From Streptomyces bottropensis ATCC 25435 (GTDB lineage: Bacteria; Actinomycetota; Actinomycetes; Streptomycetales; Streptomycetaceae): a stretch of 64,000 nucleotides of DNA. Numbering within the stretch: the first letter of the stretch is position 1; every line of letters begins with the position of its first letter. This document shows, piece after piece, positions 24,974 to 47,131 of this stretch. Position numbers and translations under genes: made by a program. Below the pieces are notes generated by a model. That model had not been told where the DNA came from. It saw only the letters and a program-made list of their open reading frames with translations, and did no database searches. The stretch covers positions 5,539,519 to 5,603,518 of the forward strand of contig NZ_KB911581.1 in NCBI RefSeq assembly GCF_000383595.1, read 5' to 3'.

Positions 24974-25014
24974 CAGGGGAGCGTGCTGATCTTCAAAATC
25001 CCAGCTCAGCAAGG

Positions 25015-25415
25015 GTATTCCCCATACGCGTGGGGGTCTATCCCTTTTCGCCCGTCTCTACAGCGACCAGTTCCGGGTATTCCCCATACGCGTGGGGGTC
25101 TATCGTACCGAGCTCTGCGCACAGGCCAGACTCACTGAGTCTTCCCCACCGCGTTGGGGGTCATCCCCCCGCCAGCAGGGATCCGGCAGGGTGTTTGGGT
25201 CTTCCCCACACACGGTGGGGCACCAGCCCAAGGCGTGCGCGTCGGCACGGGCAGTCCAAGGATCGAGCGACGCCACCCATGGCGCGGTCAGCAAAGCTGT
25301 CGGCGGCACTCGCCCAGCAGCCCACTTCACTTCTTCCTGCCCTGCGGCAGCAGCACCTCAGTTCCCTCCGCCAGTGGTCACCACCAGGTTGTTCCCCACG
25401 TCGGTTGTGGTTGCC
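25015..25415 (+). CRISPR. CRISPR array A: 4 recognisable type I-E-like repeats plus decayed remnants
   Basis: 29-bp repeats start at 25015, 25077, 25139 and 25199, with 31-33-bp spacers. The first two share GTATTCCCCATACGCG followed by TGGGGGTCTATC. The third and fourth are increasingly changed (CCGCGTTGGGGGTC; ACACACGGTGGGGC). A strongly decayed copy (GTTCCCCACGTCGGTTG) lies at ~25391, three periods further on. Repeat type, period (~61) and leader match arrays B and C, so it belongs to the same type I-E family, though it is 6 kb beyond the transposase genes. An IS5-type element is inserted at its far end. Confidence 0.75.
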
Positions 25416-29647: not shown

Positions 29648-29651
29648 GCCC

Positions 29652-29876: not shown

Positions 29877-30681
29877 GAAACTGCAGGCCCACTACGGGTT
29901 CGAGCGCATGCCCTTCGGCCGCAACCTCGCGCCGGGCATGCTGCACCGGCACGACTCCCACAACCAGGCCGTCGCCCGCATCTCCTGGTGCATCGCCGAA
30001 CGCTCCATCGGCGTGGTCACCGGCGAGGTCGGCGCCGGCAAAACCGTCTCCGTCCGCACCTGCCTGGACGCCCTCGACCCGTCGAAGTACACCGTCATCT
30101 ACATCCCCAACCCGCTGATCGGGGTCCGCGGCATCCACGAGGAGATCGTGGGCGCCTTCGGCCAGACCCCCTCTCACCTGGGCTCCCGCCTCGCCGTCCA
30201 GACGGCCAGGGCCCTGCTGTCCGAGCGGGAGGAGCGCGGACGCACCCCCGTCCTCGTTCTGGACGAGGCCCACCTGCTCTCCTACGAACAGCTGGAAACC
30301 GTCCGTATGCTCACCAACCAGGGCATGGACCAGGACTCCCCACTGTCCTGCCTGCTGGTCGGCCAGCCCACCCTGAGACGGACCATGAAGCTCGCCGTCC
30401 TGGCCGCTCTGGAGCAGCGGACTGCTCTGCGTTACACGATGCCGGGCATGACCTCGACCGAGACAACCAGCTACGTCGCCCACCACCTGAAGATCGCCGG
30501 GCGCCCGGACCAGCTGTTCACCGAGGACGCCCTCACGCTGATCCACACCACCTCGCGCGGCTATCCCCGGGCGGTCAACAACCTTGCCCTGCAGGCCCTG
30601 GTCGCCGCGTTCGCCACCGGCAAGAACCTCGTCGACGAGGCCGCCGCCCGCGCGTCCGTGAGCGAGGTGGTCGGCGACTGA
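29869..30681 (+). CDS. ExeA/TniB-like AAA ATPase of the transposon
   Basis: The 270-residue ATPase starts IEKLQAHYGFERMPFGRNL. Walker A is VVTGEVGAGKTVSVRTCLD, Walker B is VLVLDEAHLLSYEQLE, sensor 1 is LSCLLVGQPTLRRTM, and a sensor 2-type TTSRGYPRAVNNLALQAL follows. ATPases of this type act as MuB/TnsC-like target-selection proteins for DDE transposases. The GTG at 29869 lies within the preceding small gene, as usual for coupled translation. Confidence 0.85.
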   Translation: MIEKLQAHYGFERMPFGRNLAPGMLHRHDSHNQAVARISWCIAERSIGVVTGEVGAGKTVSVRTCLDALDPSKYTVIYIPNPLIGVRGIHEEIVGAFGQTPSHLGSRLAVQTARALLSEREERGRTPVLVLDEAHLLSYEQLETVRMLTNQGMDQDSPLSCLLVGQPTLRRTMKLAVLAALEQRTALRYTMPGMTSTETTSYVAHHLKIAGRPDQLFTEDALTLIHTTSRGYPRAVNNLALQALVAAFATGKNLVDEAAARASVSEVVGD

Positions 30682-31523: not shown

Positions 31524-32390
31524 TCAGTCGGGGTGACGTTGGGTGGGGTCGAGGCGGCTGAGGACGGCGCGCACAAGGTCCCGGCTGTAATGAGGTAGCG
31601 GTGCGGCTGCGCTGTGTGGGGTGGGCGGGTTCGTCGGACCTGTCCTATCGGCCTCCTGTGGGCCGGGGCCGTCGTGCTGTTCCCAGAGCAGGTAGGTGAT
31701 TTTGGCCCACTGGCGGAAGTTGCCGTGGCAGGCGACGTCGTCGATCCACAGCAGTTCGTCGGTGGGTACGTGTGCCCACAGCGGGTGGTACTCGGGGATG
31801 ACGGTGAGGACTTCTGCGGGTGTGAGGGGCTTGTAGCGCTGCCAGACGAGGATGCGGGAATCCAGCGCCGGACGGTTCTTGATCTTCTGGTAGCAGGTTT
31901 CGGCTCCGACCAGGACGACGGCGAGGCGGGTGTCCTCGTCGTCCCAAAGCTCGCGGATGAATTCGAAGGCCCGGGTGTCCAGCCACTGCGCTTCGTCGAC
32001 GACCAGGACGCGCGAGGTCTCTGACAGTGCTTCCTTGAGCATGGCTTCGCAGCGGGTGCTGTTGAGGGGGGCCTCGCCCGGTAGGTCGAGCTTTTTGTAC
32101 AAGGCGGCGCGTAGGGCCTGGATTTTGGCGGAGCCGACTTTCATGCGGAGCGTGGTGTGGGGAGCGAGGTCGTCGAGGTGGCTGTTGACGGCGAAGGTTT
32201 TGCCCAGGCCGACGCCGCCGTGGACGCACATGATGGCGCCCTTGCCGGCGTCGGCGTTGAGGGTGGTGACGAGGTTGGCGTAGGTCTCTGCGCTGGCCTG
32301 GGTCAGCATGGCGCGGGCGCCGGGCAGGCCCATGTAGTGATAGTTGGGGTCGGTGGCCGGCTGGCTCTTGGGCGTGGTCGGGTGGGTCAC
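31524..32390 (-). CDS. TnsC/MuB-like AAA+ ATPase in the cas operon
   Basis: The 288-residue ATPase is encoded last in the type I-E operon. Walker A is VHGGVGLGKTFAVNSHLDD (residues 57-75), Walker B is SRVLVVDEAQWLDT (Asp-Glu at 132-133), and AVVLVGAETCYQKIKN is the sensor 1 strand. It is close in size to MuB/TniB and lacks the long extensions of Tn7 TnsC. Such ATPases form filaments on target DNA and recruit the DDE transposase. The GTG start overlaps the transposase stop (GTGA), so the two are coupled. Its place after cas6e, where cas1-cas2 normally stand, implies a role in choosing the target together with Cascade; this is inference. Confidence 0.85.
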   Translation of the reverse strand: MTHPTTPKSQPATDPNYHYMGLPGARAMLTQASAETYANLVTTLNADAGKGAIMCVHGGVGLGKTFAVNSHLDDLAPHTTLRMKVGSAKIQALRAALYKKLDLPGEAPLNSTRCEAMLKEALSETSRVLVVDEAQWLDTRAFEFIRELWDDEDTRLAVVLVGAETCYQKIKNRPALDSRILVWQRYKPLTPAEVLTVIPEYHPLWAHVPTDELLWIDDVACHGNFRQWAKITYLLWEQHDGPGPQEADRTGPTNPPTPHSAAAPLPHYSRDLVRAVLSRLDPTQRHPD

Positions 32391-33973
32391 TGGGTCTCCT
32401 GGGGTTTGGGGTCGGAGAGGGGTTTTGTCCAGCGGGTGGAGTCGGGCTTGGGCCGGTTGAGGAGGTCGGGTCGGGCTTCGGCGTGCAGGTCTGCTTCCGG
32501 TGTCTGCAACTCGCGCAGCTGGGCAGATGCTTGGCTGCCGGTGAGCCGGTTGAGGGGCTCGGGCGCGGCGGCGATGCTGGTGGCGGCGTAGCGGGGGTTG
32601 GCGTTCTTGCGGGCCCGGCGGGCTTTGGCGGCGTAGCGGTCGGCTTCGCGTCGGCGGGCGTTGCGTAGTGCGCGGGATTGCCGGGGGCTCATCTCGTCGC
32701 TGCGGAAGGCGGAGCCGCGGTAGGTGAGGGTGTGAGCGTCGTAGAGTTCGACGCGGTGGTAGTGGTGGGGTTCGTGGCGCAGGCGGACCATCTCGCCGGC
32801 GCTTGAGTGGCCGTGCATCCAGTCGCCGACGTAGTAGGCGCTTTTCCAGCGGACGCCCTTGCTGGTGATCTTCCGGGGTGGGCCGGCGTCGGTGAGGGTG
32901 TAGGTGTGCAGGTCGGCGGGGTCGAGGGTGTCGATGGGGGTGAGGTCGGCGTGCCAGGCTTGGGCGGGGGTGCACCGGTGGAGGCGGGCAATGGTGTGGT
33001 CGTTGTTCCACCAGTCCACCCAGTCCAGGACGACGGTGATGAAGGTTTCGTAGTCGAGGAGGTCGTCCAGGGCCCACAGGGGCTGGCCGCGGCGGTCGCG
33101 ACGGCTTCGGGGGGTGTGGGCGTAGCCGGGCAGTCCTTTGAACAGCATGTGCTTGGCGGCGCCGTTGATGGCTTCGACGGTGCCTTTGAGGTGGGGGCTG
33201 TAGGGCGGCAGGACGATCAGTTCGGTGCCGAACTTTTTGAACGCCTCGTCCACGCACTTGCCCAGGAAGTCACGGCCGCGGTCGGTGCGGATCTTGCGGG
33301 GGATGCCGCCGAAGGGCCGGTGGTGATCCGTGCAGAGGATGGCGTCGCGGGCGGCGGCCAGGATGGCGTCCTGGCTGGGCTGGTGGGGCGTGATGGCCAG
33401 CCCGCAGATGACGGCGGTGGTGTGGTCGATGAACCAGGTGATCCAGGGTTTACGGCGGCGCCCGTCGACGTTGACGAAGACGCTGGCTTCGACATGGTCC
33501 GTCTCCCAGACGTCGTTGCGGTTGCCGTGGGGGCGCAAGGCGTGCACATCGTGTCGGCGGCGGGCGGCTTCACCCCCTCTGAGGGCGACACGCTGGCCGG
33601 GGCTGAGTTCCCGGTCTACGGCGCGGTAAAAGGTTGCCTGGGATACGCGGGGCGGGTTGCCAAAGATGCCGTCGGCGACGAGTTCGCGGTAGGTAGCTGC
33701 GGCGTTGCCGTTCCATCGGGCCAGGGCTTCATGCATGGCCGGCGTGAGGGTGAAGTGGCGGCGGCCTTGGGGGGTGTAGGTGCCGTGGTGGGCGTCGGCG
33801 TTGTCCATCCATCGGCGCACCGTGCGCCAGTGGACGTCGAACCCGGCGGCGACGGTACGGACATCGTGGTGAGCGAGGCGGTCTGCGGCGCGCAGGCGCA
33901 GCAGTCGGCGTACGGCGGCAGCGCGCAGGGAGGTGAGGTCGTAGGGGCCGGTGGGTGGTGGTAGGGCTGGCAC
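32387..33973 (-). CDS. TnsB/MuA-like DDE transposase in the cas operon
   Basis: The ~528-residue transposase has an N-terminal helix-turn-helix (VRTVAAGFDVHWRTVRRWMD), an integrase core and a C-terminal beta-barrel (WKSAYYVGDWMHGHSSAGEM). The core holds catalytic Asp159 (DVWETDHVEASV), Asp231 (RKIRTDRGRDFLGK) and Glu267 (HLKGTVEAINGAAK). The basic tail (KARRARKNANP) may contact the ATPase, as in MuA and TnsB. All three catalytic residues are present. The frame is open upstream without ATG; GTG 33973, 47 bases after the cas6e stop, is the best start, with AAGGAAG upstream. No TnsA-like endonuclease is encoded nearby, so replicative (cointegrate) transposition would be expected. Confidence 0.85.
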   Translation of the reverse strand: MPALPPPTGPYDLTSLRAAAVRRLLRLRAADRLAHHDVRTVAAGFDVHWRTVRRWMDNADAHHGTYTPQGRRHFTLTPAMHEALARWNGNAAATYRELVADGIFGNPPRVSQATFYRAVDRELSPGQRVALRGGEAARRRHDVHALRPHGNRNDVWETDHVEASVFVNVDGRRRKPWITWFIDHTTAVICGLAITPHQPSQDAILAAARDAILCTDHHRPFGGIPRKIRTDRGRDFLGKCVDEAFKKFGTELIVLPPYSPHLKGTVEAINGAAKHMLFKGLPGYAHTPRSRRDRRGQPLWALDDLLDYETFITVVLDWVDWWNNDHTIARLHRCTPAQAWHADLTPIDTLDPADLHTYTLTDAGPPRKITSKGVRWKSAYYVGDWMHGHSSAGEMVRLRHEPHHYHRVELYDAHTLTYRGSAFRSDEMSPRQSRALRNARRREADRYAAKARRARKNANPRYAATSIAAAPEPLNRLTGSQASAQLRELQTPEADLHAEARPDLLNRPKPDSTRWTKPLSDPKPQETQ

Positions 33974-34020
33974 GGGTGTTCGGGTGGCTTCCTTGGGGTG
34001 GTGGGCGTCGGGGCGGTGGG

Positions 34021-34728
34021 TCAGGCGGGGGCGAGGGTGAGCAGGCCGGCACCGTAGGGCTTGCCGCGGCCGATGCCGGTGAGTAGGGCGCGGCTGAGCT
34101 GGTGGGGGTCGGTGATGGTGGCCAGGCCGTCGAAGCGGGTCAGTGCGTGCATGGGGCCGGGAGAGTGGGCTTGTTCGCCGGGCTTGTGGGCGCGGCGTGT
34201 GCGGGGGAAGCGAGCGGGGGTGATGTCGGTGGTGGCCAGGGTGAGGCCGGCTTGGTGGGCGCGGCGCTGCCACCAGGCGAGGGCGTCGTCGCCGTAGAGC
34301 GCGACGATTTTTCTGCCGTGCTTGTTGTCGACGGGGTGGTGGTCGTCCAGGACGCGGCGGACGGCGCTGGCGTTGGCGGTGATGCGGTAGCGCACCGCTC
34401 GGCCGGGGGTCAGGGCCTGGAACATGGGGTGCAGGGGTCGGGTTTCGGCGGTGCCGTAGTGGTGGGGCAGGCGGGTGAGGTCGGGCGGCTGGTGGGACTG
34501 GACGAGCAGGGTGGGTGGGGTGTCGTCGGTGGCGTCTTCCAGGCGGAAGAGCAGGCCGGCCTGCTGCCGGGGGTTTTCGCCGAGGTCGTCGGGGGCCAGG
34601 AGCATCACGCTCTTGTGCAGGCTGACGGCGTCGGCCAGGTCACGGCGGGCGGCCGGGCTGCGGCGGTTGAGGCGGATCCGGGTCAGTGTCGCTGTGGTGG
34701 CGAGGGCGGCGGTTGGGGTGCTGGTCAC
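34021..34728 (-). CDS. cas6e: Cas6e, CRISPR RNA endonuclease
   Basis: The 235-residue type I-E processing nuclease cleaves the precursor RNA within each repeat and stays bound to the 3' hairpin. Visible are the N-terminal ferredoxin-like start (TLTRIRLNRRSPAARRDLAD), His38 in SLHKSVMLLAPDD (the position of the general acid/base in Cas6e), and the C-terminal Gly-rich loop GIGRGKPYGAGLLTLAPA. The GTG start overlaps the cas5e stop (GTGA). All features expected for activity are present, so the hairpin repeats in the three arrays are likely substrates. Confidence 0.9.
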   Translation of the reverse strand: MTSTPTAALATTATLTRIRLNRRSPAARRDLADAVSLHKSVMLLAPDDLGENPRQQAGLLFRLEDATDDTPPTLLVQSHQPPDLTRLPHHYGTAETRPLHPMFQALTPGRAVRYRITANASAVRRVLDDHHPVDNKHGRKIVALYGDDALAWWQRRAHQAGLTLATTDITPARFPRTRRAHKPGEQAHSPGPMHALTRFDGLATITDPHQLSRALLTGIGRGKPYGAGLLTLAPA

Positions 34729-35516
34729 GGGGTGGCGTCCTGGCGGATGTAGGCGGTCAGTTCGGTGAGTGCGGGCGGCGGGGCGTACAGGGCGGCGGGC
34801 AGGGGTTCGGTGGTGTGCCAGGTGCGGCGGGTCTTGTGGAAGCGCCGTGTGGGAGTGAAGTCATGGGGGACATCGGCGACTTCGCGTTCGCTACGCGCGG
34901 CAGGCACGTGGGAGGGCGGGTGTTCCCAGACGAAGGCGACAGGCACGGTGGCCTGGTCTGCGCGGGGTGGTGTGGTGAGGCTGAGCGGGACGTGGTGGAG
35001 GAGTTCACCGACGGGGTCGGGGCGCGGGCCGCCGAGGACGAGGGGTTCGTTGGGGAGGCAGGCGCGCCGGCCGAGGTAGGGGCCGAAGGCGGGTTGTTCG
35101 AGCCGCTGAGTGAGGTGTTCCAGGAACGGGTCGGGTCCTTGGACGGCGAGGGTGAAGACGGCGTCGGCGAGGTAGACCCGTTTGGTGATGAGGGTGGACT
35201 TCTCGCGGGGGCGGTAGGCGCCGCTGCTGGTGCGCAGGCCTTGGCGGTGCGGGCGGCCGCCGCCGACGGTGTGGTAGTCGGTGTGCCGGGTGCCGGGGCG
35301 GTCGACGCGGACGGTGAACGTCAGGTCGGTGTAGGGGGTTTTGCCGGTGGCCGGGTCGGGGGCGAGGGCTTCGTTGCGGGGGCGTGCGTCGGCGGCGGCG
35401 AACAGGCCGATGAGGGCCGAGCGGGAGGGGAAGGGGAGAGTGTCGCGGTAGTGGAAGGCGGCGTGTTCTCCGAACGACATCAGCGGTGCGGCCAGGCGCA
35501 GCAGGATGCCGTTCAT
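34725..35516 (-). CDS. cas5e: Cas5e, Cascade 5'-handle-binding subunit
   Basis: The 263-residue protein is a typical type I-E Cas5: GILLRLAAPLMSFGEHAAFH, YRDTLPFPSRSALIGLFAAA, a central thumb-like part (TDYHTVGGGRPHRQGLRTSS) and TKRVYLADAVFTLAVQG. It caps the 5' handle of the CRISPR RNA and contacts Cas8e. The start at 35516 overlaps the cas7e stop (ATGA); a much longer open frame upstream is an artefact of GC bias inside cas7e. Confidence 0.9.
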   Translation of the reverse strand: MNGILLRLAAPLMSFGEHAAFHYRDTLPFPSRSALIGLFAAADARPRNEALAPDPATGKTPYTDLTFTVRVDRPGTRHTDYHTVGGGRPHRQGLRTSSGAYRPREKSTLITKRVYLADAVFTLAVQGPDPFLEHLTQRLEQPAFGPYLGRRACLPNEPLVLGGPRPDPVGELLHHVPLSLTTPPRADQATVPVAFVWEHPPSHVPAARSEREVADVPHDFTPTRRFHKTRRTWHTTEPLPAALYAPPPALTELTAYIRQDATP

Positions 35517-36703
35517 ACGGGGGTACCGGTGGGCAGGGCCGCGTTTTTGGTGAGGGCGTCGATGAGGTCGTCGAGGCCGGCGTGGGCGGTGCCGAGGTGG
35601 TCGACGGGGCCGGGGTGCAGGGTGGCGTAGCCGCAGCCGACGAGGCGGCGGGTGCCCAGCAGCCGGTTCAGCCCGGCGGCGTGCTCGGACAGGGCTGTGA
35701 CGGCGGGGGCGGTGTAGCCGCCGCCGGGGGCGTGCTTGACGGGCTGCTCGAAAGCGGCGGCGTAGGAGACGGGGCGGCGGTCGCGGATCGTGTAGTGGAC
35801 CAGGTGGGGGTAGGTGTGCGGGGCGGTGGAGGTCTTCTTCGCGCCGGGCATGACGTCGATGAAGGCGTCGGCGAACAGGCGCAGCAGGTGCAGAGCCTGT
35901 TCGTGGTCGCCGTTCAGGTTGCGGGTCAGTTCGGTGAGGTTGACCGTGGCGTAGCGGTAGAGCAGGCCGGTGGTGAAGAACGCGGTCTGCAGGTGGGCGC
36001 TGCCGGCCTCGTTCGGGGCTGCCCAGTCCTCGACGGCGGTGAAGTAGTCGGGCTGGGGTGAGCTGGCGTGGACGGTGAAGGCGGGTGCCATCTGCACGGC
36101 GCCGTCGACGTGGGCGTCGGGCACCTCGGCGAGCATGCGGCCGAAGAGGTTGATGGTCGCGGTGCGCCGGCGGATCACGGAAGCAACCCTGGGCGTGGGC
36201 AGGACGGCCTCCGCCTTGGGCTTCTTGCGGGTGCCCTTGGCCGGGGCGGTCTGTGCGGCGGTTTCCTTGGCGAGGGCTTCTTCGAGGTGCGGGCGGTGTT
36301 CGGTGCACAGGTCGGTGAGGTCGTCGAGGACGTCGCGCGGCAGGTAGAGGGTGGCCGAGGTGATGCCGCGCTGGTTTTCCTCGGTCTTGAGGCCTTCCGT
36401 GGTGGCCGAGCGCACGATCTGGGTTCCTGCGAAGGCGGCCAGGTCGGGGGGCCAGCCGGCCGCGCGCAGGGCGTCGGCCACCCGCAGGGGCAGCATGCGG
36501 GTGCGGGCGGCGTGCTCGTCCAGGACGTCCTCCAGGCGCAGGCGCACGGCCCGCTTCCAGGACTGCGAGGACACCAGGGCGCGGACTACGCCGCCCAGTT
36601 GCAGGGTCTTGGGCAGGTCGTCCTCTCCTCGGTTGAGGAGGGAGGCGGGCAGCGGGTGCAGGATGTGGAAGTCGGCGTAGCGGGCGGGGGCGTAGGCGGT
36701 CAT
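35513..36703 (-). CDS. cas7e: Cas7e, Cascade backbone subunit
   Basis: The 396-residue protein starts with YADFHILHPLPASLLNRGED followed by LPKTLQLGGVVRALVSSQSW and KRAVRLRLEDVL, the conserved RNA-binding N terminus of type I-E Cas7. The central part includes MQMAPAFTVHASSPQPDYFT-like VDGAVQ regions and a C-terminal helical part (FADAFIDVMPGAKKTSTA). Six copies line the guide in E. coli Cascade. A linker rich in Lys, Thr and Ala (TAPAKGTRKKPKAEA) near residues 145-160 is longer than usual and may mark an insertion. It starts 2 bases after the cas11 stop, so it is tightly coupled. Confidence 0.9.
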   Translation of the reverse strand: MTAYAPARYADFHILHPLPASLLNRGEDDLPKTLQLGGVVRALVSSQSWKRAVRLRLEDVLDEHAARTRMLPLRVADALRAAGWPPDLAAFAGTQIVRSATTEGLKTEENQRGITSATLYLPRDVLDDLTDLCTEHRPHLEEALAKETAAQTAPAKGTRKKPKAEAVLPTPRVASVIRRRTATINLFGRMLAEVPDAHVDGAVQMAPAFTVHASSPQPDYFTAVEDWAAPNEAGSAHLQTAFFTTGLLYRYATVNLTELTRNLNGDHEQALHLLRLFADAFIDVMPGAKKTSTAPHTYPHLVHYTIRDRRPVSYAAAFEQPVKHAPGGGYTAPAVTALSEHAAGLNRLLGTRRLVGCGYATLHPGPVDHLGTAHAGLDDLIDALTKNAALPTGTPV

Positions 36704-36704
36704 G

Positions 36705-37367
36705 TCACTGCTCCTTGGATGTCAGGGTGTGCAGGGTGAGGAAGTAGTTCTCGCGCCAGCGGGCGGCGGTCTCGAGGTGGTCGTCGTCCCACCAGGCCAG
36801 GTCCTCCAGCAGGACGGCGAAGTCGAGGCGGGCGGCGCCGCGGCTGTTCAGGTGGCCGGTCAGCGTCCACAGCCTCGGGTGCAGCAGCGAGGTGTCGAGC
36901 CGGGTGAGGGTTTTGACGCGGTTGGTCATGGTGGCTTCTTTGAAGCCGTAGCGGGCCACGGCGATGGCGAGGTGGGTGCCGAGATCGGGACGGCGGCGCC
37001 AGGGCCGCTCAGCCGTGCTCGCCGCCGGTGCCGGACCCGACGGGTTGGATGCTGGAGCGGTGTTCGCGGTCGGTGTGGTGGCGTCCTGGTCCTTGCCGGG
37101 GGCAGGCTGTTCCGGCTGGTAGGGGCCTTCTTCGTGGGGCAGGTCGGGGTGCAGGGCGATGAGTGCGGCCACGGTGTAGTGGGCGCGGCGTGCTCCGAAG
37201 CCGGCGATGTGCCGGGTGAGGTGCTCGGGCATCCGGGAGCACTCTGCGACGGGCCGTCCGAAGCCCGAGTTGAGGTCGGCGCGGATGCCGTTGACCGCGC
37301 ACAGGGTGATGACCTGGTGGACGAAGTCGTCGTAGTGGGCGCGGCGTTGCGCGGTGGTGACGGGCAT
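36705..37367 (-). CDS. cas11: Cas11 (Cse2), Cascade small subunit
   Basis: The ~220-residue protein fits Cse2: a basic helical N-terminal half (RRAHYDDFVHQVITLCAVNG; IRADLNSGFGRPVAE) and a C-terminal half ending LLEDLAWWDDDHLETAARW and RENYFLTL. The two are joined by an unusually long Pro/Ala linker (about residues 80-115), which is absent from E. coli Cse2 (160 residues). It stabilises the displaced target strand. ATG 37367 is used because the frame upstream of it is not conserved-looking. It lies directly between cas8e and cas7e, as in standard I-E operons. Confidence 0.85.
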   Translation of the reverse strand: MPVTTAQRRAHYDDFVHQVITLCAVNGIRADLNSGFGRPVAECSRMPEHLTRHIAGFGARRAHYTVAALIALHPDLPHEEGPYQPEQPAPGKDQDATTPTANTAPASNPSGPAPAASTAERPWRRRPDLGTHLAIAVARYGFKEATMTNRVKTLTRLDTSLLHPRLWTLTGHLNSRGAARLDFAVLLEDLAWWDDDHLETAARWRENYFLTLHTLTSKEQ

Positions 37368-37428
37368 AGGGGCGGCAGCCTCCGAAGGCGGCAAGAAAGA
37401 GTGGGCAGAGGGATGTGGTGAGGGAGGA

Positions 37429-39051
37429 TCAGCGGCTGCGCAGGCGCAGCTGGGCCAGGGCGGTGGCGACGGCTTCCGCGGCGCGGAAGTGCTGGGCGAT
37501 CGCCGGGCGGGTAGCGGTGCGCAGGGCGTCGATGGCGTCCGCGGCGAACGCCGCGCGGGCGCTGCGGGCGGGTTCGTTCAGCAGGTTCCAGAAGGTGGCC
37601 TCGGCGCGGGGCCAGTACAGGGTGCGGGCGCTGCGGGTCCAGGGCGGCAGGTGGCGGGGGCTGCCGGCGTTGGTGGTCTGCTTCCAGGCTTCCTGGGAGA
37701 GGCGGTCGAGGTGGGCGCCGATCTCTTCGGCGGCCTTGCGGCATGCGGCGATCCGCTCGGCCGCGGCTGGGTCGCATTCCTGCATCCAGGGCCAGATCGG
37801 CGGGGTCAGGGCTGTGTACCAGGTGCGGTTGGTGGTCTTGCCGTCCTGGTCGAATCCGTAGACCCGCACCCGCAGGGCGGCGCGCAGGTCGGGGGGCAGG
37901 TCGTTGAGGGTCGTGAAGGCGTCGGGTCGCTGGACGGTGTAGCGGCCTTTTCCGCTCTTTGCCTGGGTGCCTTTGCGGTCGTCCTCGTCGCCCGCCAGCA
38001 GCAGCGCGTCCAGGTCGCGCCACAGGGCCCGGTCGGCGTCCGCGCGGCGTGGTCGGTGGCGTCGGGTGACCGGTTCGTCCGCATGGAAGTGATGGATGAG
38101 GTACGGGTCGAGGGCCGGGAGTTTCTTCTGGGTGGCCCAGGTCAGGTAGGCGTCGGTCACGTGGCGTCCGTCCGGTGCGGGGATGAGGAGGACGGCGTGA
38201 CGCGAGCGGCCGGTCAGCAGACGGCCCGGTGAGGACACCGGCGGCGGCGCGGTATCGGGGTCCGGGCCCTCGACGGGGTCACCGTCGTCGTCGGGGTCGG
38301 GGTGGGGCAGCGGTTCCTCCCACGGGCAGTGGTCCACTGTGTCCGGCCAGGACGAGTCGGGCTTGGGGATGCCGGCCAGGAGGGTCTCGTACAGGGTCCG
38401 GCCCAGGGGGTGGAAGGACAGACTCGAGCGCAGTGGGCCGGCTTTAGCCCGGTTGAGGGAGCGATCGCCTACGGTGCGCACGGACCATTGTCCGGCCGCG
38501 CCGTAGTAGTGGTGGATGAGCATGTGCCACAGCGCCTGGGCGCTGGGCACCGGCTGCGGGTCGGTGTCCGTATGCGGGCTGAGCCAGGAAAGGTTGTTGC
38601 CCTCGGGACGGCCGAAGACCAGCTTGTTGACGCCGGCGCGTTGCGGGCACTGGCTGGCCAGTCTCGGGTCTTGCAGGAACGGCCGCGCCGGGTGGAACAG
38701 GTCCCAGATGTAGGCGTCGAAGTAGGCGTGAACGGCGTCGGGGTCGAACCCGGCGGGATGCGCCAGTAACTCCCTTCGGCGGGCAGCCCACTGACGTGCC
38801 GTCATGCGCCCCGGTCCTCGTGCGTCCAGGCCGCTGACCCGTGCGGCCATGACCACGAGTAGGCGCAAGACGGCAGATGCCGTCGGCGGGACGGGAAGTG
38901 CCAGGTCCTTGATGAGGTGGGCGCGCAGCAGCACGTCCCGCCATCCCAGCTCCTCCTGGTGCCCGTCCGGGAAGAGGACGGGAATACACGGTTCTTTGTC
39001 GGTCTCAAAACGCGGGGAAGACACACAGGATCCATTGCAGGGTGCGAACAA
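37429..39051 (-). CDS. cas8e: Cas8e (Cse1), Cascade large subunit
   Basis: The 540-residue large subunit recognises the protospacer-adjacent motif and, in ordinary type I-E systems, recruits Cas3. The family start (CIPVLFPDGHQEELGWRDVL) is followed by LRLLVVMAARVSGL, DAYIWDLFHPARPFLQDPRL, GKTTNRTWYTALTPP and the C-terminal four-helix bundle (AGSPRHLPPWTRSARTLYWP). Length is normal. Nothing is fused to it and no TniQ-like domain is present. It is the first gene of the leftward operon ending in the transposase ATPase. Confidence 0.9.
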   Translation of the reverse strand: MFAPCNGSCVSSPRFETDKEPCIPVLFPDGHQEELGWRDVLLRAHLIKDLALPVPPTASAVLRLLVVMAARVSGLDARGPGRMTARQWAARRRELLAHPAGFDPDAVHAYFDAYIWDLFHPARPFLQDPRLASQCPQRAGVNKLVFGRPEGNNLSWLSPHTDTDPQPVPSAQALWHMLIHHYYGAAGQWSVRTVGDRSLNRAKAGPLRSSLSFHPLGRTLYETLLAGIPKPDSSWPDTVDHCPWEEPLPHPDPDDDGDPVEGPDPDTAPPPVSSPGRLLTGRSRHAVLLIPAPDGRHVTDAYLTWATQKKLPALDPYLIHHFHADEPVTRRHRPRRADADRALWRDLDALLLAGDEDDRKGTQAKSGKGRYTVQRPDAFTTLNDLPPDLRAALRVRVYGFDQDGKTTNRTWYTALTPPIWPWMQECDPAAAERIAACRKAAEEIGAHLDRLSQEAWKQTTNAGSPRHLPPWTRSARTLYWPRAEATFWNLLNEPARSARAAFAADAIDALRTATRPAIAQHFRAAEAVATALAQLRLRSR

Positions 39052-39417: not shown

Positions 39418-39537
39418 CTGTCACTTCTCATTTCAGTGTCACCGCCGGTTCTCGCTCAGATGTCAGGCATTCCTGTCTGGCCCCAGCTAGCGGCAGGGTG
39501 GCATCGGATGAGAAGCCCTGGCGGCCTGGGATGAGAA
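39418..39537 (+). repeat. Composite motif module L (candidate transposon end or operator)
   Basis: It lies between cas8e and cas3. Two motifs read right (TTCTCATTTCAGTGTCAC at 39425-39442; TTCTCGCTCAGATGTCAG at 39449-39466) and two read left (TGAGAA ends at 39514 and 39537; TTCTCATCCGATGCCAC and TTCTCATCCCAGGCCGC). The first 58 bases match module R in inverted orientation at 40/58 positions; over the first 27 the match is 23/27. Motif positions are the same to within 2-3 bases in both modules. Confidence 0.65.
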
Positions 39538-39659
39538 TTCGCCGCCTTCTGTCTTCTGGCATCGCGCTGCTGCGTGCCTCGGGCAGGAAGATCCGGCCTT
39601 CCTGCAGCGGCGATGCCCGTGAGGGGAGTTCGGGCGGGCGGTGTGAGGCGGGAAGCGGC

Positions 39660-42521
39660 TCAGTCTTCGGTGTGGACGAGTCCCAGGGCGTCGTCGAGGT
39701 GCAGACGGTGCCGGCCGAAGCGCACCGGCCGGGAGGGGTCGCCGGCGTCCTGCGGGAGCAGGACGAGGTCGGCGAGGAGGGCGTGGCTGCGCCAGGAGGC
39801 GGGGATGTGGTGGTCTCTTGTGCGGCCGGCGACCCAGGCGGCGGGGACGGGCAGGGTGTGCTGGAGGATCGTGCGGATCTGGGCGGTGGTCGGTTTGCGG
39901 TGCTCGGGCAGCGGCCGGGTGCCGGCCGCGTCCAGAGTGAGGCGGCCGCCGGACATGCGGTAGACGGGCAGGAGACGGCGGGGCATGGCGCCCAGGCGGG
40001 TGGCGGCCTCGCGGGGGTGCAGGTTCTGGCGGTGCAGGTCGGACAGCGAGAGGGTGTCGTGCCAGGCCGGCACGAGGTGCAGGGCACTGTGGTGTTCCTC
40101 GGTGCGGGTGCGGGCCTGGTGCAGGGTGTGGCTGCGGCGCAGGGCGGCGTCGGTGCGGGCGAGGGCGTCGGCGTCTCCGTGTACGGCTTCCACGAGCTGC
40201 TGCACGTCGTCGGGCAGGGTGAGCGGCTGCTCGGGCCGTCGGGCGAGGTAGGCGGCGGTGGCGAGCGGCAGGAACGGGGAGTCCAACGGGCGCCAGGCGG
40301 GCGGCAGGAGGGTGCGGCCGCGGTGGTCGGTGGGCTCCAGGACGATCAGGCGGGGGACGTCGCCGCAGAGCCAGTCGGGCCGCTTGATGTGGTCGAAACG
40401 CCACAGGCGGCCCAGGCGTTGCAGGAGGGTCTGCAGGGGGGCCAGGTCGCTGACCATGACGTCAACGTCGACGTCCAGGCTCATGTCCAGCAGGCTGGTG
40501 GTGATGACCACCAGCCTTCGAGGGCGCTCGCCGGTCGCCGACAGGGCGGTGCGGACGCGGCGGGTGAGGGCCTCACGTTGGAAGCCCGGCAGGCGGGCGT
40601 GCAGCAGGAGCAGCTGGCCGTCGGGGCCGCCGTCCGGCCAGTTGAGGGCGGTTGTCAGGTGTGCGTAGGTGGTCTGGGCGTCGGCCATGGTGGCGCAGTA
40701 GACGGCCGCGCAGCCGCCCGAGCGGGCGACGGGGGCGATCTCCTGGGTGATGCGCCCCAGTCGGCTCTCGCGGGCCGGGGCGTCCTCGGGGTCGGTGCAG
40801 GAGGGGTGGCGCACCGGGTGGAGACGGAGGTCGGCGCGGCGGCGGTGGCGGTCGGCGTGGGCGTCGGCCGCGGCTGGGTCGATGCGGGTGAGGGAGGCGT
40901 CTGAGGCGGCGGCGTAGAGCCAGCCCGGGTAGGGGGGCCGGCAGTCCAGGTGGGCTGTTGCGGGGTGCGGGTGGCCGGCGCCGTCGAGATAGCTGCGCAC
41001 GAGCTGGCTGCTGATGTGGCCGGGCAGAGTCGCGGACAGCAGCACCACGGGGCAGCCCAGGGCGCCGAGCCAGTGCAGCAGCCGGGACAGTGTCTGCCGC
41101 ATGAACGGGGGCAGGGCGTGGACTTCGTCGACGATGACGGTCCGCCCGCACAGGGCCAACATGCGCAGGGCGCTGAAGCGGACCGGAAGGGCGGCCATGA
41201 GGGCCTGGTCGTGGGTGGCGACGGTGAACTGGGCCAGCAGGGCCCTGTCCCAGCCGCGCAGCCAGCCGTCGGGCACCGTGACGCGTTCTTCGGGCCGCTC
41301 CCCCGCAGTCGGCCTGCCCTCATCACCGTAGCCGTCGTCGCTGTCGGGCCAGTAGGCGTCGCTGGTGGAGGGTTCACGGGCGGCCAGGCGGTGGTCGGTG
41401 TAGGCGGTGTTGTTGTAGCTGTGACTGTGGACCAGGGAGACCGGGGCGTGCTCGGGATGGTGGGCCGCAACGTAGGCCTCGAGGAGGTCGTAGGCGGCAT
41501 CCGTGGTGGCCATGGTCGGCAGCAGCCACAGAATGCCTGAGGTGTCACCGGAGGCGTTGAAGATCCGTGCTGCTTCCAGCGCGGTGACGCTCTTTCCGCC
41601 ACCGGTGGCATCGGTGACCACCAGGATGCCGGGCCCCTTCTCCCCCACCACGGCGGGCAGTTGCCCGATCATCGAGGCCTGCAGGGCGTTCGGCCGCTCC
41701 AGGCCGCCGTGCGCCTGGGTGAACGGCACCTGCGGCAGAGTGATACGGACAAGCCCGGACTCCTCGACCACGCCGGGAGCGTCCCGGACGGCCAGGGAAA
41801 AGTGCTCGCCGGCGCCAAAGGCCGGCGCCTGGGCCTTGGGCAGCCAGTAGTGGCGCTGGCTGGCCAGCCGGTCCGCGATGACGCCGACCCCGGTGATCAG
41901 CACGGCCGCCGGCACCGACACGTCCGAGGGCACCGCGGTGGCGCCGGTCAGATGACGCAACAGGGCGAAGTAGCGGCGGCGCACGTCCTGCCAGGCCGAC
42001 CCGCCCAAGGCGAGGTTGACTCGAGATGCCTTGGCTGCGCCATCGATGTCGACCTGCAGGAACCGGCCGTGATGGCCGCCCAGGATCTGCGCAATCAACA
42101 CACCGGGGCTGTCGGAAGTGTCCGCCGGATAGCCTGCCTCGGCCAGCAGGTGCAGCACACTGTGCATGGACGCCCGCTCATGCGGCATACGCCGCCAGTT
42201 ACCGGTGTCGCTGCGCAGGGTGTCACTGACCCGGGCCCAGGGATGCGCCTCCTGTTCCTGGAACGCGGACAACTTGCCCAGATCGTGCAGGCCAGCGATG
42301 AACATCACCTGGCAGCGCGCCTGAGCCAGAGTGAGCCCCAGTCCGGCGGCGATCAGCCGGCGCTGGCCGCGGGTCAGGTACCCGTCCCAGACCGCACCCG
42401 CGAGCGCCGCGACATCCAGCAGATGGAACAGCAGCGCATACACCGCCCGCTCTCCGCGGTCGAACTTGCCCCACGGCGACAGGTTGATTCCGTCGCGCCG
42501 GGCATCCTCCCGCACCCCCAC
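39660..42521 (-). CDS. cas3: Cas3, HD nuclease-helicase of type I-E
   Basis: The 953-residue protein has an N-terminal HD nuclease domain (LLFHLLDVAALAG; His79-Asp80 in FIAGLHDLGKLSAF; RASMHSVLHLLAEAG; His-His at 150-151 in ILGGHHGRF). An SF2 helicase follows: Walker A VTDATGGGKSVTALEAARIF, motif II VIVDEVHALPPFM, motif III VVLLSATLPGHI, motif V SLDVDVDVMVSDL and motif VI LLQRLGRLWRFD. Length and order are normal and no key residue is missing. In ordinary systems it degrades DNA marked by Cascade. It is transcribed in the same direction as cas8e but set apart by 608 bases containing module L. Confidence 0.92.
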   Translation of the reverse strand: MGVREDARRDGINLSPWGKFDRGERAVYALLFHLLDVAALAGAVWDGYLTRGQRRLIAAGLGLTLAQARCQVMFIAGLHDLGKLSAFQEQEAHPWARVSDTLRSDTGNWRRMPHERASMHSVLHLLAEAGYPADTSDSPGVLIAQILGGHHGRFLQVDIDGAAKASRVNLALGGSAWQDVRRRYFALLRHLTGATAVPSDVSVPAAVLITGVGVIADRLASQRHYWLPKAQAPAFGAGEHFSLAVRDAPGVVEESGLVRITLPQVPFTQAHGGLERPNALQASMIGQLPAVVGEKGPGILVVTDATGGGKSVTALEAARIFNASGDTSGILWLLPTMATTDAAYDLLEAYVAAHHPEHAPVSLVHSHSYNNTAYTDHRLAAREPSTSDAYWPDSDDGYGDEGRPTAGERPEERVTVPDGWLRGWDRALLAQFTVATHDQALMAALPVRFSALRMLALCGRTVIVDEVHALPPFMRQTLSRLLHWLGALGCPVVLLSATLPGHISSQLVRSYLDGAGHPHPATAHLDCRPPYPGWLYAAASDASLTRIDPAAADAHADRHRRRADLRLHPVRHPSCTDPEDAPARESRLGRITQEIAPVARSGGCAAVYCATMADAQTTYAHLTTALNWPDGGPDGQLLLLHARLPGFQREALTRRVRTALSATGERPRRLVVITTSLLDMSLDVDVDVMVSDLAPLQTLLQRLGRLWRFDHIKRPDWLCGDVPRLIVLEPTDHRGRTLLPPAWRPLDSPFLPLATAAYLARRPEQPLTLPDDVQQLVEAVHGDADALARTDAALRRSHTLHQARTRTEEHHSALHLVPAWHDTLSLSDLHRQNLHPREAATRLGAMPRRLLPVYRMSGGRLTLDAAGTRPLPEHRKPTTAQIRTILQHTLPVPAAWVAGRTRDHHIPASWRSHALLADLVLLPQDAGDPSRPVRFGRHRLHLDDALGLVHTED

Positions 42522-42712
42522 CGAATGCTCCCGCTCCGCTCTACGTCAACCCACCCTGGAATCAGGGGTGTTTCACCCATCCTGCCGCATGTAGAGCATC
42601 TCCCCCGGTACGCGGCCTTGGGAGGTCAGGGTGTAGCCTACGATTCGATCTCACCGGTTTCCTCATCCCGTGAGGGTGCACCCCTGCTGGTCATCAGGCC
42701 GCTCAGGAACCT

Positions 42713-43168
42713 GTGTTTCCCCACAGCGTGGGGGTCTTTCCAGCAGTGCGGCGAGCTGTGCCATTCGCAGGCCGTCTTCCCCACACGCGTGGGGGGGTTC
42801 GTCCGCGCCGGTGAACACGACGAGGCCACATTCGACGTCTTCCCCACACGCGTGGGGTCTGTCCGCCGTCCGCGACCGTCACCACACCGATGCTGGGTCT
42901 TCCCCACGTGCGTGGAGGTCTGTCCAGGGTGTTGATACTGCCGAAGGTCCGCACAACGTCTTCCCCATACCCGTGGGGGTCTGCCATCGTCCAAGGTGAG
43001 GCCGACGGCGGGGTCCACGGCTTTTCTACCCTCACGTGGGGGTCCGTCCTGCAGCACGTCACCGTTCTCGCCCAATCTGCCGTCTTCCCCACACGTGTGG
43101 GGTCGTCCCACCCCGTAGTCCTTCTGCGTCTTCTTCGTGATGCCTTCCACACGCGTGGGTTCACCGCG
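42713..43168 (+). CRISPR. CRISPR array B: 8 degenerate type I-E-like repeats
   Basis: 28-31-bp repeats start at about 42713, 42774, 42837, 42897, 42958, 43020, 43082 and 43140, with a 60-63-bp period and ~32-bp spacers. The consensus is GTCTTCCCCACACGCG followed by TGGGGGTCTGTCC, with a CCCCAC/GTGGGG stem. Only a few copies are close to consensus; the sixth (TTTTCTACCCTCACG) and the last (TGCCTTCCACACGCG) are strongly changed. It lies divergently just upstream of cas3. The spacers appear unrelated to one another. Confidence 0.9.
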
Positions 43169-43443
43169 GCGTCCTGGCCAGCCTCGAGACGCAGCGCGCC
43201 CGCGCCCTCGTTCTCATCGGCCGCCCCGCCGCGCAGCCCGGGATTCCGCAGGACACCGTCAACGGCGTGCTGCGTACCGTCGACAGCCATCTGGGCCGCA
43301 TCGGGGTGCTGACGTACCAGGAGTTCCTGGACCACACCGAACGCGCACTCGGGAATGATGCAGCCAGCTGAACTGCATGGTGCCGCTGGGCAGGGCAGGC
43401 GAAGCGCGGACGACCCCACAGACAACGAAAGGGCAGGGAAGTC

Positions 43444-44133
43444 ATGGTCGAGATGAGCCCGCAGCAGGCGCGGGAGTTCTGGAAGGCACTGATGGACAAC
43501 GCGTCCTCGCTGGTCACCGACGCCCACACGCTGCTGACGGCAGGGTCCTTCGGGCGGGCGCGGTCCCTCACCGTCCTCGCGCAGGAGGAACTCGGGAAAG
43601 CACTGTGGATCTATGACGCCTTCCAAACCGCCTGGAGCCAGGGCGATGGAATGTCACGGACGGTGGACGCGCTGGCTCAGCACGGGCGAAGCCACACGAA
43701 GAAGTACCTTGCGTCCGTCGTCTTCGGAGACGAACTCGCCGAGTTCTGGGGTGACTACAGTGCCGTGCCCGGGGAGGGATCGGGCTATGCGGCATGGGAG
43801 GAAGCGCACCGCAAAGGCCAGGAGGAGGCCGAGTTCGCCGCCGGTGAGGCCAACCTTGCCAAGCAGCAGGGCTTCTACGTGGATCGCGGCGCGGATGGCA
43901 CCGTCTCCTCCCCGACGGACATGGAAGCCGGCACCACGGCGGACGACCTGCAAACGGCCGCGCGCGTGATCGAGATGCTGCTCATCAGCGACCACAACCG
44001 CATGAAATCGGCTGCTACGCCGTATGACAGCACGCACGCCCAGCAGTTTCGGCTGCTGCCCATCTCCCACCCGGATGACTGGGCAGCATCCTCCGACGGG
44101 CCCGACCGTCCGGTCGAATACAGCGGCGAGTAG
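43444..44133 (+). CDS. AbiV-family abortive-infection protein
   Basis: The 229-residue protein shows the AbiV pattern of a helical HEPN-like fold: FWKALMDNASSLVTDAHTLL, then GSFGRARSLTVLAQEELGKA and LWIYDAFQTAW, with a second helical half (DLQTAARVIEMLLISDHNRM). AbiV proteins block phage growth by stopping translation in Lactococcus. It lies between arrays B and C, on the + strand, with GGGCAGGGAAG upstream, and may be defence cargo of the CRISPR-transposase locus. The catalytic residues of HEPN nucleases (RxxxxH) are not obvious. Confidence 0.7.
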   Translation: MVEMSPQQAREFWKALMDNASSLVTDAHTLLTAGSFGRARSLTVLAQEELGKALWIYDAFQTAWSQGDGMSRTVDALAQHGRSHTKKYLASVVFGDELAEFWGDYSAVPGEGSGYAAWEEAHRKGQEEAEFAAGEANLAKQQGFYVDRGADGTVSSPTDMEAGTTADDLQTAARVIEMLLISDHNRMKSAATPYDSTHAQQFRLLPISHPDDWAASSDGPDRPVEYSGE

Positions 44134-44216
44134 CCCCCAACGCGCGCGTGGGTCCGCTCCGTCCGGCGGCGCCAGCACCGGACTGCCCCGGTTCCCGGGG
44201 ATGCCTCCCGGGCGAG

Positions 44217-44960
44217 TCAGAAGCTGTCCGATCGCACACGGTCGGTTCCGGTGCGAGCTCGCTGCGCCGCAAGGCTAGGTCGCCTCGCGGTACTTGTCCC
44301 GGCTCCATCGCGTCGTGGAGGGGAGGGTTTGCGGCCCACCGGCCCGGGGCCGACCGCTCCGGACTGCCGCAGCAGTTTCCGCGCCGCCCGCTCAATCATC
44401 TGTACTGGGTCCTCGACGTCACGGAAATCGAACCACTCGCCGCCCAGGGCTCGTACGGCAAAGCGTTCGTGCAGGCGTTCCTCCAGCCAGCCACCACCGC
44501 AGGAGGTCCACCGCACGACCAGCGGTGAACCGGAACCGGACTGCAGTGTCTTACGCCGCACAGGAACGTCCTTGGACACGCCGATCTTGACGGCCTTCGG
44601 ATCTACCTGCGAGGACACGGCATAAACCAAGCGGTCGTCTCGGTCTTCCTGGCCAGGGGGAGCATCACGCTGCACGAGTCCGCCCAGGTCCTGGTCGTAG
44701 AGTTCCTCTCCACGCTCAAACTCCTCCCTCAGTTCCCCTACGGTCTCCTCCAGTACACCGCGCACCTCGCCAGCACTCACCGCTCCCCGGTCAATCAGCT
44801 CCAGCATCTCCATGACCGCCAGCATGTCTATCTCCGTGCGGGGTTCAGGCTTGGCTTGCGGGGCGCGGCCGCGCCTGTGCGCCACGGTCACGGTCAGCGA
44901 GACCTCGCGCAGCCAGTGATCATTGAAGCTGAAGTCGACGCTGAAACGTGCACCGCGCAT
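44217..44960 (-). CDS. GIY-YIG (T5orf172/MUG113-like) nuclease-domain protein
   Basis: The ~247-residue protein has a central GIY-YIG-type domain: LVYAVSSQVDPKAVKIGVSK, DVPVRRKTLQSGSGSPLVV, and LEERLHERFAVRALGGEWFD with EWFDF (the terminal motif of T5orf172 domains). The N-terminal ~110 residues form an acidic helical segment (EMLELIDRGAVSAGEVRGVL). The C-terminal tail is basic and Ser/Arg rich. It stands between arrays B and C, divergent from array C. It may be a homing-type nuclease, a repair factor or defence cargo. Confidence 0.65.
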   Translation of the reverse strand: MRGARFSVDFSFNDHWLREVSLTVTVAHRRGRAPQAKPEPRTEIDMLAVMEMLELIDRGAVSAGEVRGVLEETVGELREEFERGEELYDQDLGGLVQRDAPPGQEDRDDRLVYAVSSQVDPKAVKIGVSKDVPVRRKTLQSGSGSPLVVRWTSCGGGWLEERLHERFAVRALGGEWFDFRDVEDPVQMIERAARKLLRQSGAVGPGPVGRKPSPPRRDGAGTSTARRPSLAAQRARTGTDRVRSDSF

Positions 44961-45516
44961 GACGCAAGTCCTTCCAGATCAGCCGCTGCCTGCGAAGGGG
45001 GCCCGGCAGGCTCTTCCTTGAAGGCACCGCACGTCCAGCGTGCGGACCGCGAGTATGGCAGCGAGGTCTGACAAACGACCGCGTCTGCAGGCATCGTCCC
45101 TGGACGCACTCCCGCGGGAGGCCGTTGCCACAGGCCCGGCAGCTGCGGGTGCATAAGGAGGAGCTCGGGCTCTGCTTCATGGCCGGCCAGAGGTCCGGGC
45201 GTCCCGCCATCCTGAGTTCAGGCCCCGCCAGGCCCCCCGTCTTGCCGGGATCCCCTTCACTACCGCTGCCGTCCCCGCGGCACCCTTGAGCGTGGCCGCA
45301 GGACTCGTATCCGTCTGGCTCCAGCCCGCACTTTCCGTTCAACGACTGCTGTCGGCTGCAGTCCCATAGGTCAGCCCGCGCCTAACGGATGAAACCCCGC
45401 AGGCAAGCACAACCGGCACGCTACCGATGATCCCAACACCCCTTGCCAGTAAGTCAGTTCAGGTCGAACGGCGACGGCAGCGCTCGCCGGCAGCGACTCT
45501 GATCAGCACGGCCAGC
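44961..45516. other. Intergenic stretch before array C
   Basis: No gene can be supported. Open frames here are GC-driven and lack start signals. The last ~60 bases are AT-richer and carry the leader motif of array C. Confidence 0.45.
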
Positions 45517-45527
45517 TCATGTAAAGT
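45517..45527 (+). promoter_or_regulatory. CRISPR leader motif of array C
   Basis: TCATGTAAAGT is identical to the sequence in front of array A (24963-24973) and has nearly the same distance to the first repeat. The segment that follows is AT-rich (GAGCAAAAGACAG, GGACAAAAATC). Confidence 0.55.
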
Positions 45528-45573
45528 GAGCAAAAGACAGTCGGCTTGTCTCCGAAACCGCAGGTGGACAAAA

Positions 45574-46365
45574 ATCTTCCCCGTACACGCGGGGGTCGTT
45601 CCTCAAGAACCACCGGGACCACTCGGAATCCTCCGTCTTCCCCGTACACGCGGGGGTCTTCCCAGCTCCTCACAGCTGCCGAGGGAGTAGTCGCCGTCTT
45701 CCCTTACGTCTGCGGGGTCTGCCGTTCGCCAACCGGGCACAGCTGTCCGTCGTCGCATTCCCCACACGCATGGAGATCGTTCCCTCTCATGCACCCAGGT
45801 AGCCCAGCTGGAGGTCTTCCCATATGTATGAGGGTCCATCGCGCAGCAGGTAGCGTGCCAGTGATTGAGGATTGCGCTCCCCACGCGTGCGCGGGGGGGT
45901 CCTTTCGGGCTGGATCCGCCTGACTACCCAAAACAGCCCTCTCCGTTCTTCAGAGCCCCAGGTCACGAAGAGTCTTCCCCACACGCGTGGGGGTCTGCCC
46001 GAAGCAGGCCGAGCTGCGCTGGAGCGCTTCGCGTCTTCCCCACCACGCGTGGGGGTCTGCCCACTGGCCGATGCACGCCGACCGCGGCGCCTTCATCTGC
46101 CGCACACGCGTGGGGGTCTTTCCTCTTCCTGTGCGTCACCGCGTTGGTCGCGAGTGTCTTCCCCACCCGCGTGGGGGTCTTTCCGCCCAGCCTACGCGGC
46201 ACCATTCGCCCGCGAGGCTTCCCCGCGCCCGTGGGGGTCTGTCCGCCGTGAACCCACCAGACCTCGCTCTGTGTTGGTCTTCCTCGCGCCCGCGGGGGTC
46301 TCTCCACGGTGACGCCTCCCCGGTCGTCCAGCCGCGCCTTTTCGCCACGCGCGTGGCGGTCAAGC
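45574..46365 (+). CRISPR. CRISPR array C: 13 degenerate type I-E-like repeats
   Basis: Repeats start at about 45574, 45635, 45696, 45755, 45814, 45874, 45972, 46033, 46095, 46156, 46216, 46277 and 46336. The usual period is 59-62 bases; one interval (45874-45972) is 98 bases, suggesting a lost or unrecognisable repeat. The first two share CCCCGTACACGCGGGGGTC; later ones have CCCCACACGCGTGGGGG or variants. Several copies keep the hairpin through paired changes, most clearly the last (GCCACGCGCGTGGC). The fourth to sixth are strongly diverged. Confidence 0.9.
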
Positions 46366-46479
46366 AATGAGGCGGGTATCTCAGCCCCTCACTCATGTCG
46401 AGCAGAGTCTCAGGATCGCCCCCAGCTCTCGCCCTGCAAGAACAAAAAGCAGCAGGTCAGATGACCAGTCTCTATGGCC

Positions 46480-46621
46480 TTCTCGTTTCAGTGCGCTGGA
46501 GATTCTCACGCAATGTCACTAAAGCCTTCTCACTCGCTGTCACCACTTCTCCGTCTTGAACAGCAAAGATGCATGACACCCAGATGACAACTACCGGTGA
46601 CACCGAAATGAAAAGTCGCAG
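46480..46621 (-). repeat. Composite motif module R (candidate transposon end or operator)
   Basis: It lies between array C and the RiPP cluster. On the - strand two motifs read inward (TTTTCATTTCGGTGTCAC from 46612; TTGTCATCTGGGTGTCAT from 46588). Three motifs read on the + strand (TTCTCGTTTCAGTGCGC at 46480, TTCTCACGCAATGTCAC at 46503, TTCTCACTCGCTGTCACC at 46527), with 23-24-base spacing. The arrangement mirrors module L, with one additional site. The sequence outside 46621 shows no similarity to that outside module L. Confidence 0.65.
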
Positions 46622-46936: not shown

Positions 46937-47044
46937 ATGGAAGCCAAGTCGCAGGCCGCCGCCAGGACCTCGACCACGCAGACGCCCGAGAACCTCGCCA
47001 CCGAAGAGGTGGTCATCGCGGTCGACGTCGACGACGAGGAGTAG
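46937..47044 (+). CDS. Candidate RiPP precursor peptide
   Basis: The 35-residue peptide begins MEAKSQAAARTSTTQTPENL and ends ATEEVVIAVDVDDEE. GAAGGAAA precedes the ATG at good spacing. It has no domain of its own, sits directly ahead of a TfuA-YcaO pair, and is followed by a hairpin. That is the classic layout of a ribosomal peptide precursor. It has no Cys, so thiazole formation is excluded; backbone thioamidation or amidine formation by YcaO, or methylation of acidic side chains, remains possible. Which part is the core is unknown; the acidic C terminus is the best guess. Confidence 0.6.
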   Translation: MEAKSQAAARTSTTQTPENLATEEVVIAVDVDDEE

Positions 47045-47067
47045 TCCTCACCACTAGTTCTCACCTG

Positions 47068-47107
47068 GGCGCCCTTCTCCGGCCGACGGTGGCCGGGGAA
47101 GGGCGCC
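47068..47107 (+). terminator. Hairpin between precursor and biosynthetic genes
   Basis: GGCGCCCTTCTCCGGCC (47068-47084) pairs with GGCCGGGGAAGGGCGCC (47091-47107), 16 of 17 pairs, with a 6-base loop. It probably works as an attenuator that makes the peptide message more abundant than the enzyme message, which is common in RiPP operons. Confidence 0.7.
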
Positions 47108-47131
47108 CGCCCTTTCGAGGAGGTTTCAGCA

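Follow-up and report, generated by a model that had tools for sequence, protein, structure and literature searches.

A type I-E CRISPR locus with tnsB and tnsC in Streptomyces bottropensis as a probable CAST I-E5 telomeric transposon with a single specific end

Genes, arrays and paired modules of the locus

Between 31.5 and 46.6 kb of the window (the whole 64,000-nucleotide stretch of Streptomyces bottropensis DNA analysed here) lie Cascade genes and tnsB/tnsC on the minus strand, cas3, CRISPR arrays B and C, AbiV and a T5orf172/GIY-YIG-like gene (Table 1). Pfam profiles (Cse1, Cse2, Cas7, Cas5, Cas6e and Cas3_HD) identify a type I-E Cascade with an HD-containing Cas3, and the window TnsB matches solved TnsB chains in the PDB (E 4e-9). 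Here, as in the related loci, tnsB and tnsC stand in the place of the adaptation module, and cas1 and cas2 were not seen in the gene list of the locus. The TniQ profile PF06527 had no match in the genome, in a search whose control likewise matched nowhere. The leader of array A, to the left of tnsC, carries a TGTAAAGT box; since this array has a spacer in common with that of genome G107, we count it as part of the element body.

Several other features surround this core. A GNAT gene near tnsC has a separate pair, formed by a DDE transposase and an AAA ATPase (28247–30681), immediately to its left, and the left body of the element contains an RHS/PT-HINT polymorphic-toxin-like gene (11083–14223) with IstB nearby. 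Beside R, at 46938–48900, there is a RiPP-like cluster comprising a short acidic precursor and TfuA-like and YcaO-like ORFs. A second I-E locus of the same genome (G000:C1:5671591-5673087, L065) has no adjacent tnsB/tnsC.

Table 1 Coordinates of the features in the window
Position	Strand	Feature	Basis or remark
25010..25240	+	CRISPR array A, own leader, left of tnsC	one spacer common to G107
31524..32396	-	tnsC-like AAA ATPase	Pfam AAA_22; after tnsB in all I-E5 loci
32387..34273	-	tnsB-like DDE transposase, true start probably internal	Pfam rve and Mu-transpos_C; TnsB in PDB; TnsB in PADLOC
34021..39051	-	cas8e-cse2-cas7-cas5-cas6 operon, running into tnsB-tnsC	Pfam
39419..39540	+	L module, lineage-specific end-like cluster	between cas8e promoter region and cas3 stop
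39425..39442	+	L outer site 1	
39449..39466	+	L outer site 2	
39498..39514	-	L inner opposed site	
39520..39537	-	L inner opposed site	
39660..42521	-	cas3, full, with HD domain	Pfam, PADLOC
42714..43115	+	CRISPR array B	
42925..42958	+	Spacer against tnsB of TnsABC elements near linear-plasmid ends	AA PAM; G107 has a homologous spacer
45575..46366	+	CRISPR array C, own leader	trailer end toward R
46452..46459	+	GCAGGTCA box, array-proximal edge of R	also in G084 leaders
46480..46620	-	R module, putative only specific (right) end of telomeric I-E5 element	5'-TG at 46620, body leftward
46480..46497	+	R inner opposed site	
46503..46519	+	R inner opposed site, spacer 5	read directly, aligned to relative
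46527..46543	+	R inner opposed site, spacer 5	
46573..46590	-	R outer TnsB-like site 2	24 bp from site 1
46597..46614	-	R outer TnsB-like site 1	TTTTCATTTCGGTGTCAC
47025..47057	-	Protospacer outside R, matching S. stelliscabiei spacer (31/33)	AA PAM; PAM-distal side facing R

A sequence-only reading of this DNA had paired the modules L and R as inverted relatives with a common order of binding sites, and the pairing holds: L (39418–39475) and the reverse complement of 46564–46621 are identical at 40 of 58 bases, compared with at best 34 for 300 shuffles of L and 28–29 for the second-ranking position in the window. A site weight matrix built from 20 outer sites, all taken from other clades, ranks both outer sites of L and the outermost site of R as the top three of about 128,000 window positions (39423(+), 21.9; 39447(+), 19.2; 46595(-), 18.9). 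The consensus TTCTCA-N6-TGTCAC was rejected as sole evidence, its five matches in the window at up to two mismatches being near chance (2.7 expected); the significance is in the paired, 24-bp-spaced arrangement and not in the lone consensus. Nor is this a motif scattered like the sites of a general regulator, which the same reading had considered: allowing up to one mismatch, the core pattern occurs at 12 places in the whole 8.96-Mb genome (4 for a reversed control), and those in the window are the L and R places only. No second comparable site cluster was present in the 283 kb read around the window. Both modules terminate in the 5'-TG that had been proposed, and the exact ends are 39419 (L) and 46620 (R), each one base inside the original placement at 39418 and 46621. 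As for the two or three opposed inner sites, R has three (spacers 5 or 6) and L two. The flanks ACAAC (L) and GTGAA (R) are unlike, as had been stated, so that there is no 5-bp target duplication.

The R module and its insertion junction

The same gene set was first recognised in eight further loci, and a genome scan then added more. In 16 type I-E loci with tnsB and tnsC, an R-type module is located just past the last CRISPR array, and its elements follow a constant order: TG, four bases, a site, 24 bp, a second site, a gap, and two or three opposed sites 23–24 bp apart, often accompanied by TGACCTGC. The TG occupies the predicted base in all of these modules but one (L147, offset by one). 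This conserved layout agrees with the initial description of Mu/Tn7-like modules of putative TnsB sites.

The outer limit of the module can be read by comparison. The R modules of the window and of G107 are 81.5% identical, and the match ends at the terminal TG, at 46620–46621, beyond which the flanks are unrelated. In genome G134, R interrupts a sub-telomeric helicase-like (ttrA-like) gene with base precision, the homology to the target starting at the first base past the terminus, and the same target point is uninterrupted in 14 loci of other genomes. Nowhere in the G134 genome is the distal half of the interrupted gene to be found, as would be expected if the old chromosome end had been replaced. 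In addition, contigs of the draft assemblies of G044 and S. stelliscabiei end exactly at the terminal TG of R. No empty site was found for the window's own right flank, whose homologues begin 200 bp away. Judged by these alignments R is a true transposon end, which the sequence-only reading had offered as an alternative to a paired element.

Three relatives show further peculiarities. In G084 (L051, extended positions 35200–35310), an internal array is followed by a second, partial R-like module, which has just the inner sites and looks like a decayed older end; each array of this genome has its own leader. Outside the R end of G050, at a distance of about 480 bp, there is a conventional-looking I-E array that runs in the opposite orientation (L052, 17721–17999). 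In S. cadmiisoli (L018, 17736–20049), a DprA-like gene and a hypothetical gene come after tnsC.

Streptomycetaceae loci that combine I-E genes with tnsB/tnsC have been presented before as lacking detectable transposon ends, and an adaptation role was proposed for them (Faure 2019, as related in PMC12231136 and PMC8730458). On that proposal TnsB/TnsC would form an alternative module for spacer adaptation and R would be an element of the array leader or trailer, an arrangement in keeping with the position of R next to an array, with the fact that cas1/cas2 were not seen and with the GCAGGTCA box common to the leaders and R in G084. The proposal rested on the absence of ends, however, and an R end with a base-exact insertion has now been found. 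R was rejected as an array leader, since by the direction of the repeats it lies at the trailer. The arrays are moreover static: three homologous spacers are found between the window and G107 (86–92% identity) and 20 between G134 and BB1-1-1, and in these two comparisons no spacer gain was seen. Because the arrays are inherited and drift between species, their behaviour argues against an adaptation role, which we regard as scarcely credible. An end that can be placed to the base and that sits within a gene favours mobility, where the earlier reports had loci without ends and a transposase guessed to gain spacers.

The L module

The sequence-only reading drew the left limit of a 7.2-kb mobile unit at L, with the transposase outside. 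In such a unit (39419–46620), cas3, the arrays, AbiV and the GIY-YIG gene would be moved in trans by the neighbouring TnsB/TnsC, and the inverted modules with TG at both termini and a shared layout are compatible with this, as are the preservation of the L-R pair in HM190 (7.1 kb) and S. stelliscabiei (6.3 kb) and, weakly, the clustering of L differences outside the half-sites described below. The distribution of L speaks against it. L is restricted to three close relatives, being present in HM190 (Cas8e 94–95% identical) and S. stelliscabiei (Cas8e 99%), and is absent from CB01373, cf386 and G107, where other sequence fills the interval and cas3 and cas8e are still adjacent; CB01373 and G107 nonetheless carry R in the same place. 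L is therefore lineage-specific and not a boundary. Empty sites with a clean junction had been suggested as a check for both modules; the 14 uninterrupted loci supply them for the R end of G134. Furthermore, the segment outside L (cas8e-tnsB-tnsC) and the DNA left of tnsC are collinear with HM190 down to 5.511 Mb, at least 60 kb beyond L, while the outer flanks of R share nothing. With neither a target duplication nor a second copy in the 283 kb read, and because L is an extra cluster of only three close relatives, the 7.2-kb segment is probably not the mobile unit, and we give this arrangement very little credence.

L has also followed a different course from R. The window and S. stelliscabiei are 98.4% identical up to 42795, inside array B, and only 80% identical in R, so the segment from the arrays to R was exchanged between the two independently of L. 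Between the window and HM190, 1 of the 12 columns that differ in L falls in the half-sites, which make up 43 of 122 core positions (p about 0.04).

As an alternative, the sequence-only reading had named L an operator of the cas8e operon, by analogy with Mu, whose ends and operators share sites; TnsB would then act through L on cas8e-tnsBC. In favour of this, L is placed upstream of the operon, its half-sites are largely conserved, and a weaker cluster occupies the same interval in G044 (p 0.003). Against it, such sites are not enriched in the cas3-cas8e intervals of other I-E5 loci (median p 0.23) relative to conventional I-E loci that lack tnsB (0.18), and for this reason an operator as a general I-E5 trait was rejected; the distance from L to the start of cas8e is moreover about 370 bp, with a conserved promoter-like stretch in between. 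An operator function is accordingly rather unlikely in our estimation. Alternatively, L may be all that recombination or an abortive transposition has left of an R-type end, now dead, a reading that comes close to an even chance. It would explain a cluster that is lineage-restricted, solitary, about 70% like R and devoid of a target duplication, but would not predict half-sites that are mostly conserved, nor a matrix score as high as that of real ends. Overall, L is most likely a relic or spare copy of the end, or a TnsB-responsive control site, upstream of cas8e-tnsBC.

Telomere, spacer targets and related systems

Matrix scans found no second end in the 60 kb covered in G134 and G107, nor over the approximately 101 kb to the chromosome start of G107, and a left end beyond tnsC was rejected because the scan was empty over 60–100 kb. 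The element thus shows one specific end, conserved among the loci and exact in G134, with no partner in G107 up to the chromosome end. Linear assemblies always have tnsC on the side of the chromosome end and R on that of the interior, with R at 61 kb in HM190, 121 kb in G107 and 178 kb in G084. The contig that contains the window begins at dnaA, and the window, at 5.54–5.60 of 8.96 Mb, may therefore lie near the chromosome ends. Short ttrA-like fragments in opposite orientations are found in this genome at 5.395 and 5.450 Mb. A search for an archetypal telomere between 5.38 and 5.66 Mb returned only a 163-bp inverted repeat with copies about 7 kb apart, and the start of the HM190 record contains no telomere-like sequence.

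Elements with one specific end and a telomere as the second boundary were reportedly described in 2025 by Hsieh. We consider it very probable, from sequence comparison, that the window holds a CAST I-E5 telomeric transposon in which R is the sole specific end, the telomere the other boundary, and L no boundary at all. TnsB would bind R as the single specific end, and the opposite boundary would be the telomere beyond the tnsC side; upon insertion, the element would replace the distal part of a chromosome end, and its guide arrays would probably steer it to sub-telomeric genes.

The spacers point in this direction. Those of the I-E5 loci gave 44 spacer-length matches to ttrA-like loci and four telomeric TnsABC elements, compared with 2 for reversed and 2 for complement controls, and the PAM-distal side is telomere-ward in 35 of the 44, a count in which shared spacers are not independent. 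AA is found within three bases upstream of 16 of 23 distinct protospacers and downstream of none (background 4.5%), in agreement with the AAN PAM reported for the I-E system of S. avermitilis. In the flanks of R, all nine spacer-length matches face R (control 0). One of them can be followed in the window itself, where the protospacer of an S. stelliscabiei spacer lies 405 bp from the R end; the S. stelliscabiei element is near-identical to that of the window. This same spacer matches the 3' end of the RiPP-like precursor. CASTs usually insert roughly 50 bp from their target. Because the distances between spacer match and R end (216–2300 bp) exceed this value, the matches do no more than suggest RNA-guided insertion of the I-E5 element, and an RNA-guided takeover of telomeres is plausible.

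A more specific scheme, which we put forward tentatively and hold to be distinctly below an even chance, is that the I-E5 arrays guide the capture of the ends of rival telomeric elements, L being a second R-type end acquired in one lineage. The crRNAs would be directed against ttrA and the tnsABC genes of rivals, with the PAM-distal side telomere-ward; the R end would enter on the telomere side, and the rival would lose its distal end and telomere, those of the element taking their place. In this scheme, L could allow the array/cas3 segment to move without bridging to a telomere. The spacer data yield a testable rule, under which the guides target genes for sub-telomeric helicases and transposases, use an AA PAM and are polarised toward the telomere; if it holds, one mobile element captures chromosome ends from another under CRISPR guidance.

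The I-E5 variant of CASTs, or telomeric transposons, is described in PMC12669027, which cites Hsieh et al. (2025, Science, eadp1973), as lacking TniQ-TnsD and having an active Cas3 HD, and the R locus fits as a new member of this class. The traits in common are the I-E effector, HD-Cas3 and tnsB with tnsC, as well as the sub-telomeric position and single specific end that we propose here, and no TniQ was seen; the window lineage differs by the extra end-like module L. The loci of Faure 2019, as reported through PMC12231136 and PMC8730458, possess the same gene set without cas1/cas2 and come with no reported ends, whereas here the end is located and an insertion junction (G134) is read. The ends of Tn7 and of the I-F3, I-B and V-K CASTs resemble R in their arrays of TnsB sites, the 5'-TG and an array near one end, but these elements have two ends and TniQ, in contrast to the one end, opposed inner sites and intact Cas3 found here. 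Phage Mu has transposase sites in both orientations within one end, as R does, while the window element has no Mu repressor or head genes and a CRISPR effector instead. Finally, the TnsABC elements located 5–12 kb from the ends of Streptomyces and Kitasatospora linear plasmids (L134–L139) likewise have tnsB and tnsC near telomeres; they differ in encoding TnsA and a DNA-binding protein without CRISPR, and are themselves frequent targets of I-E5 spacers.
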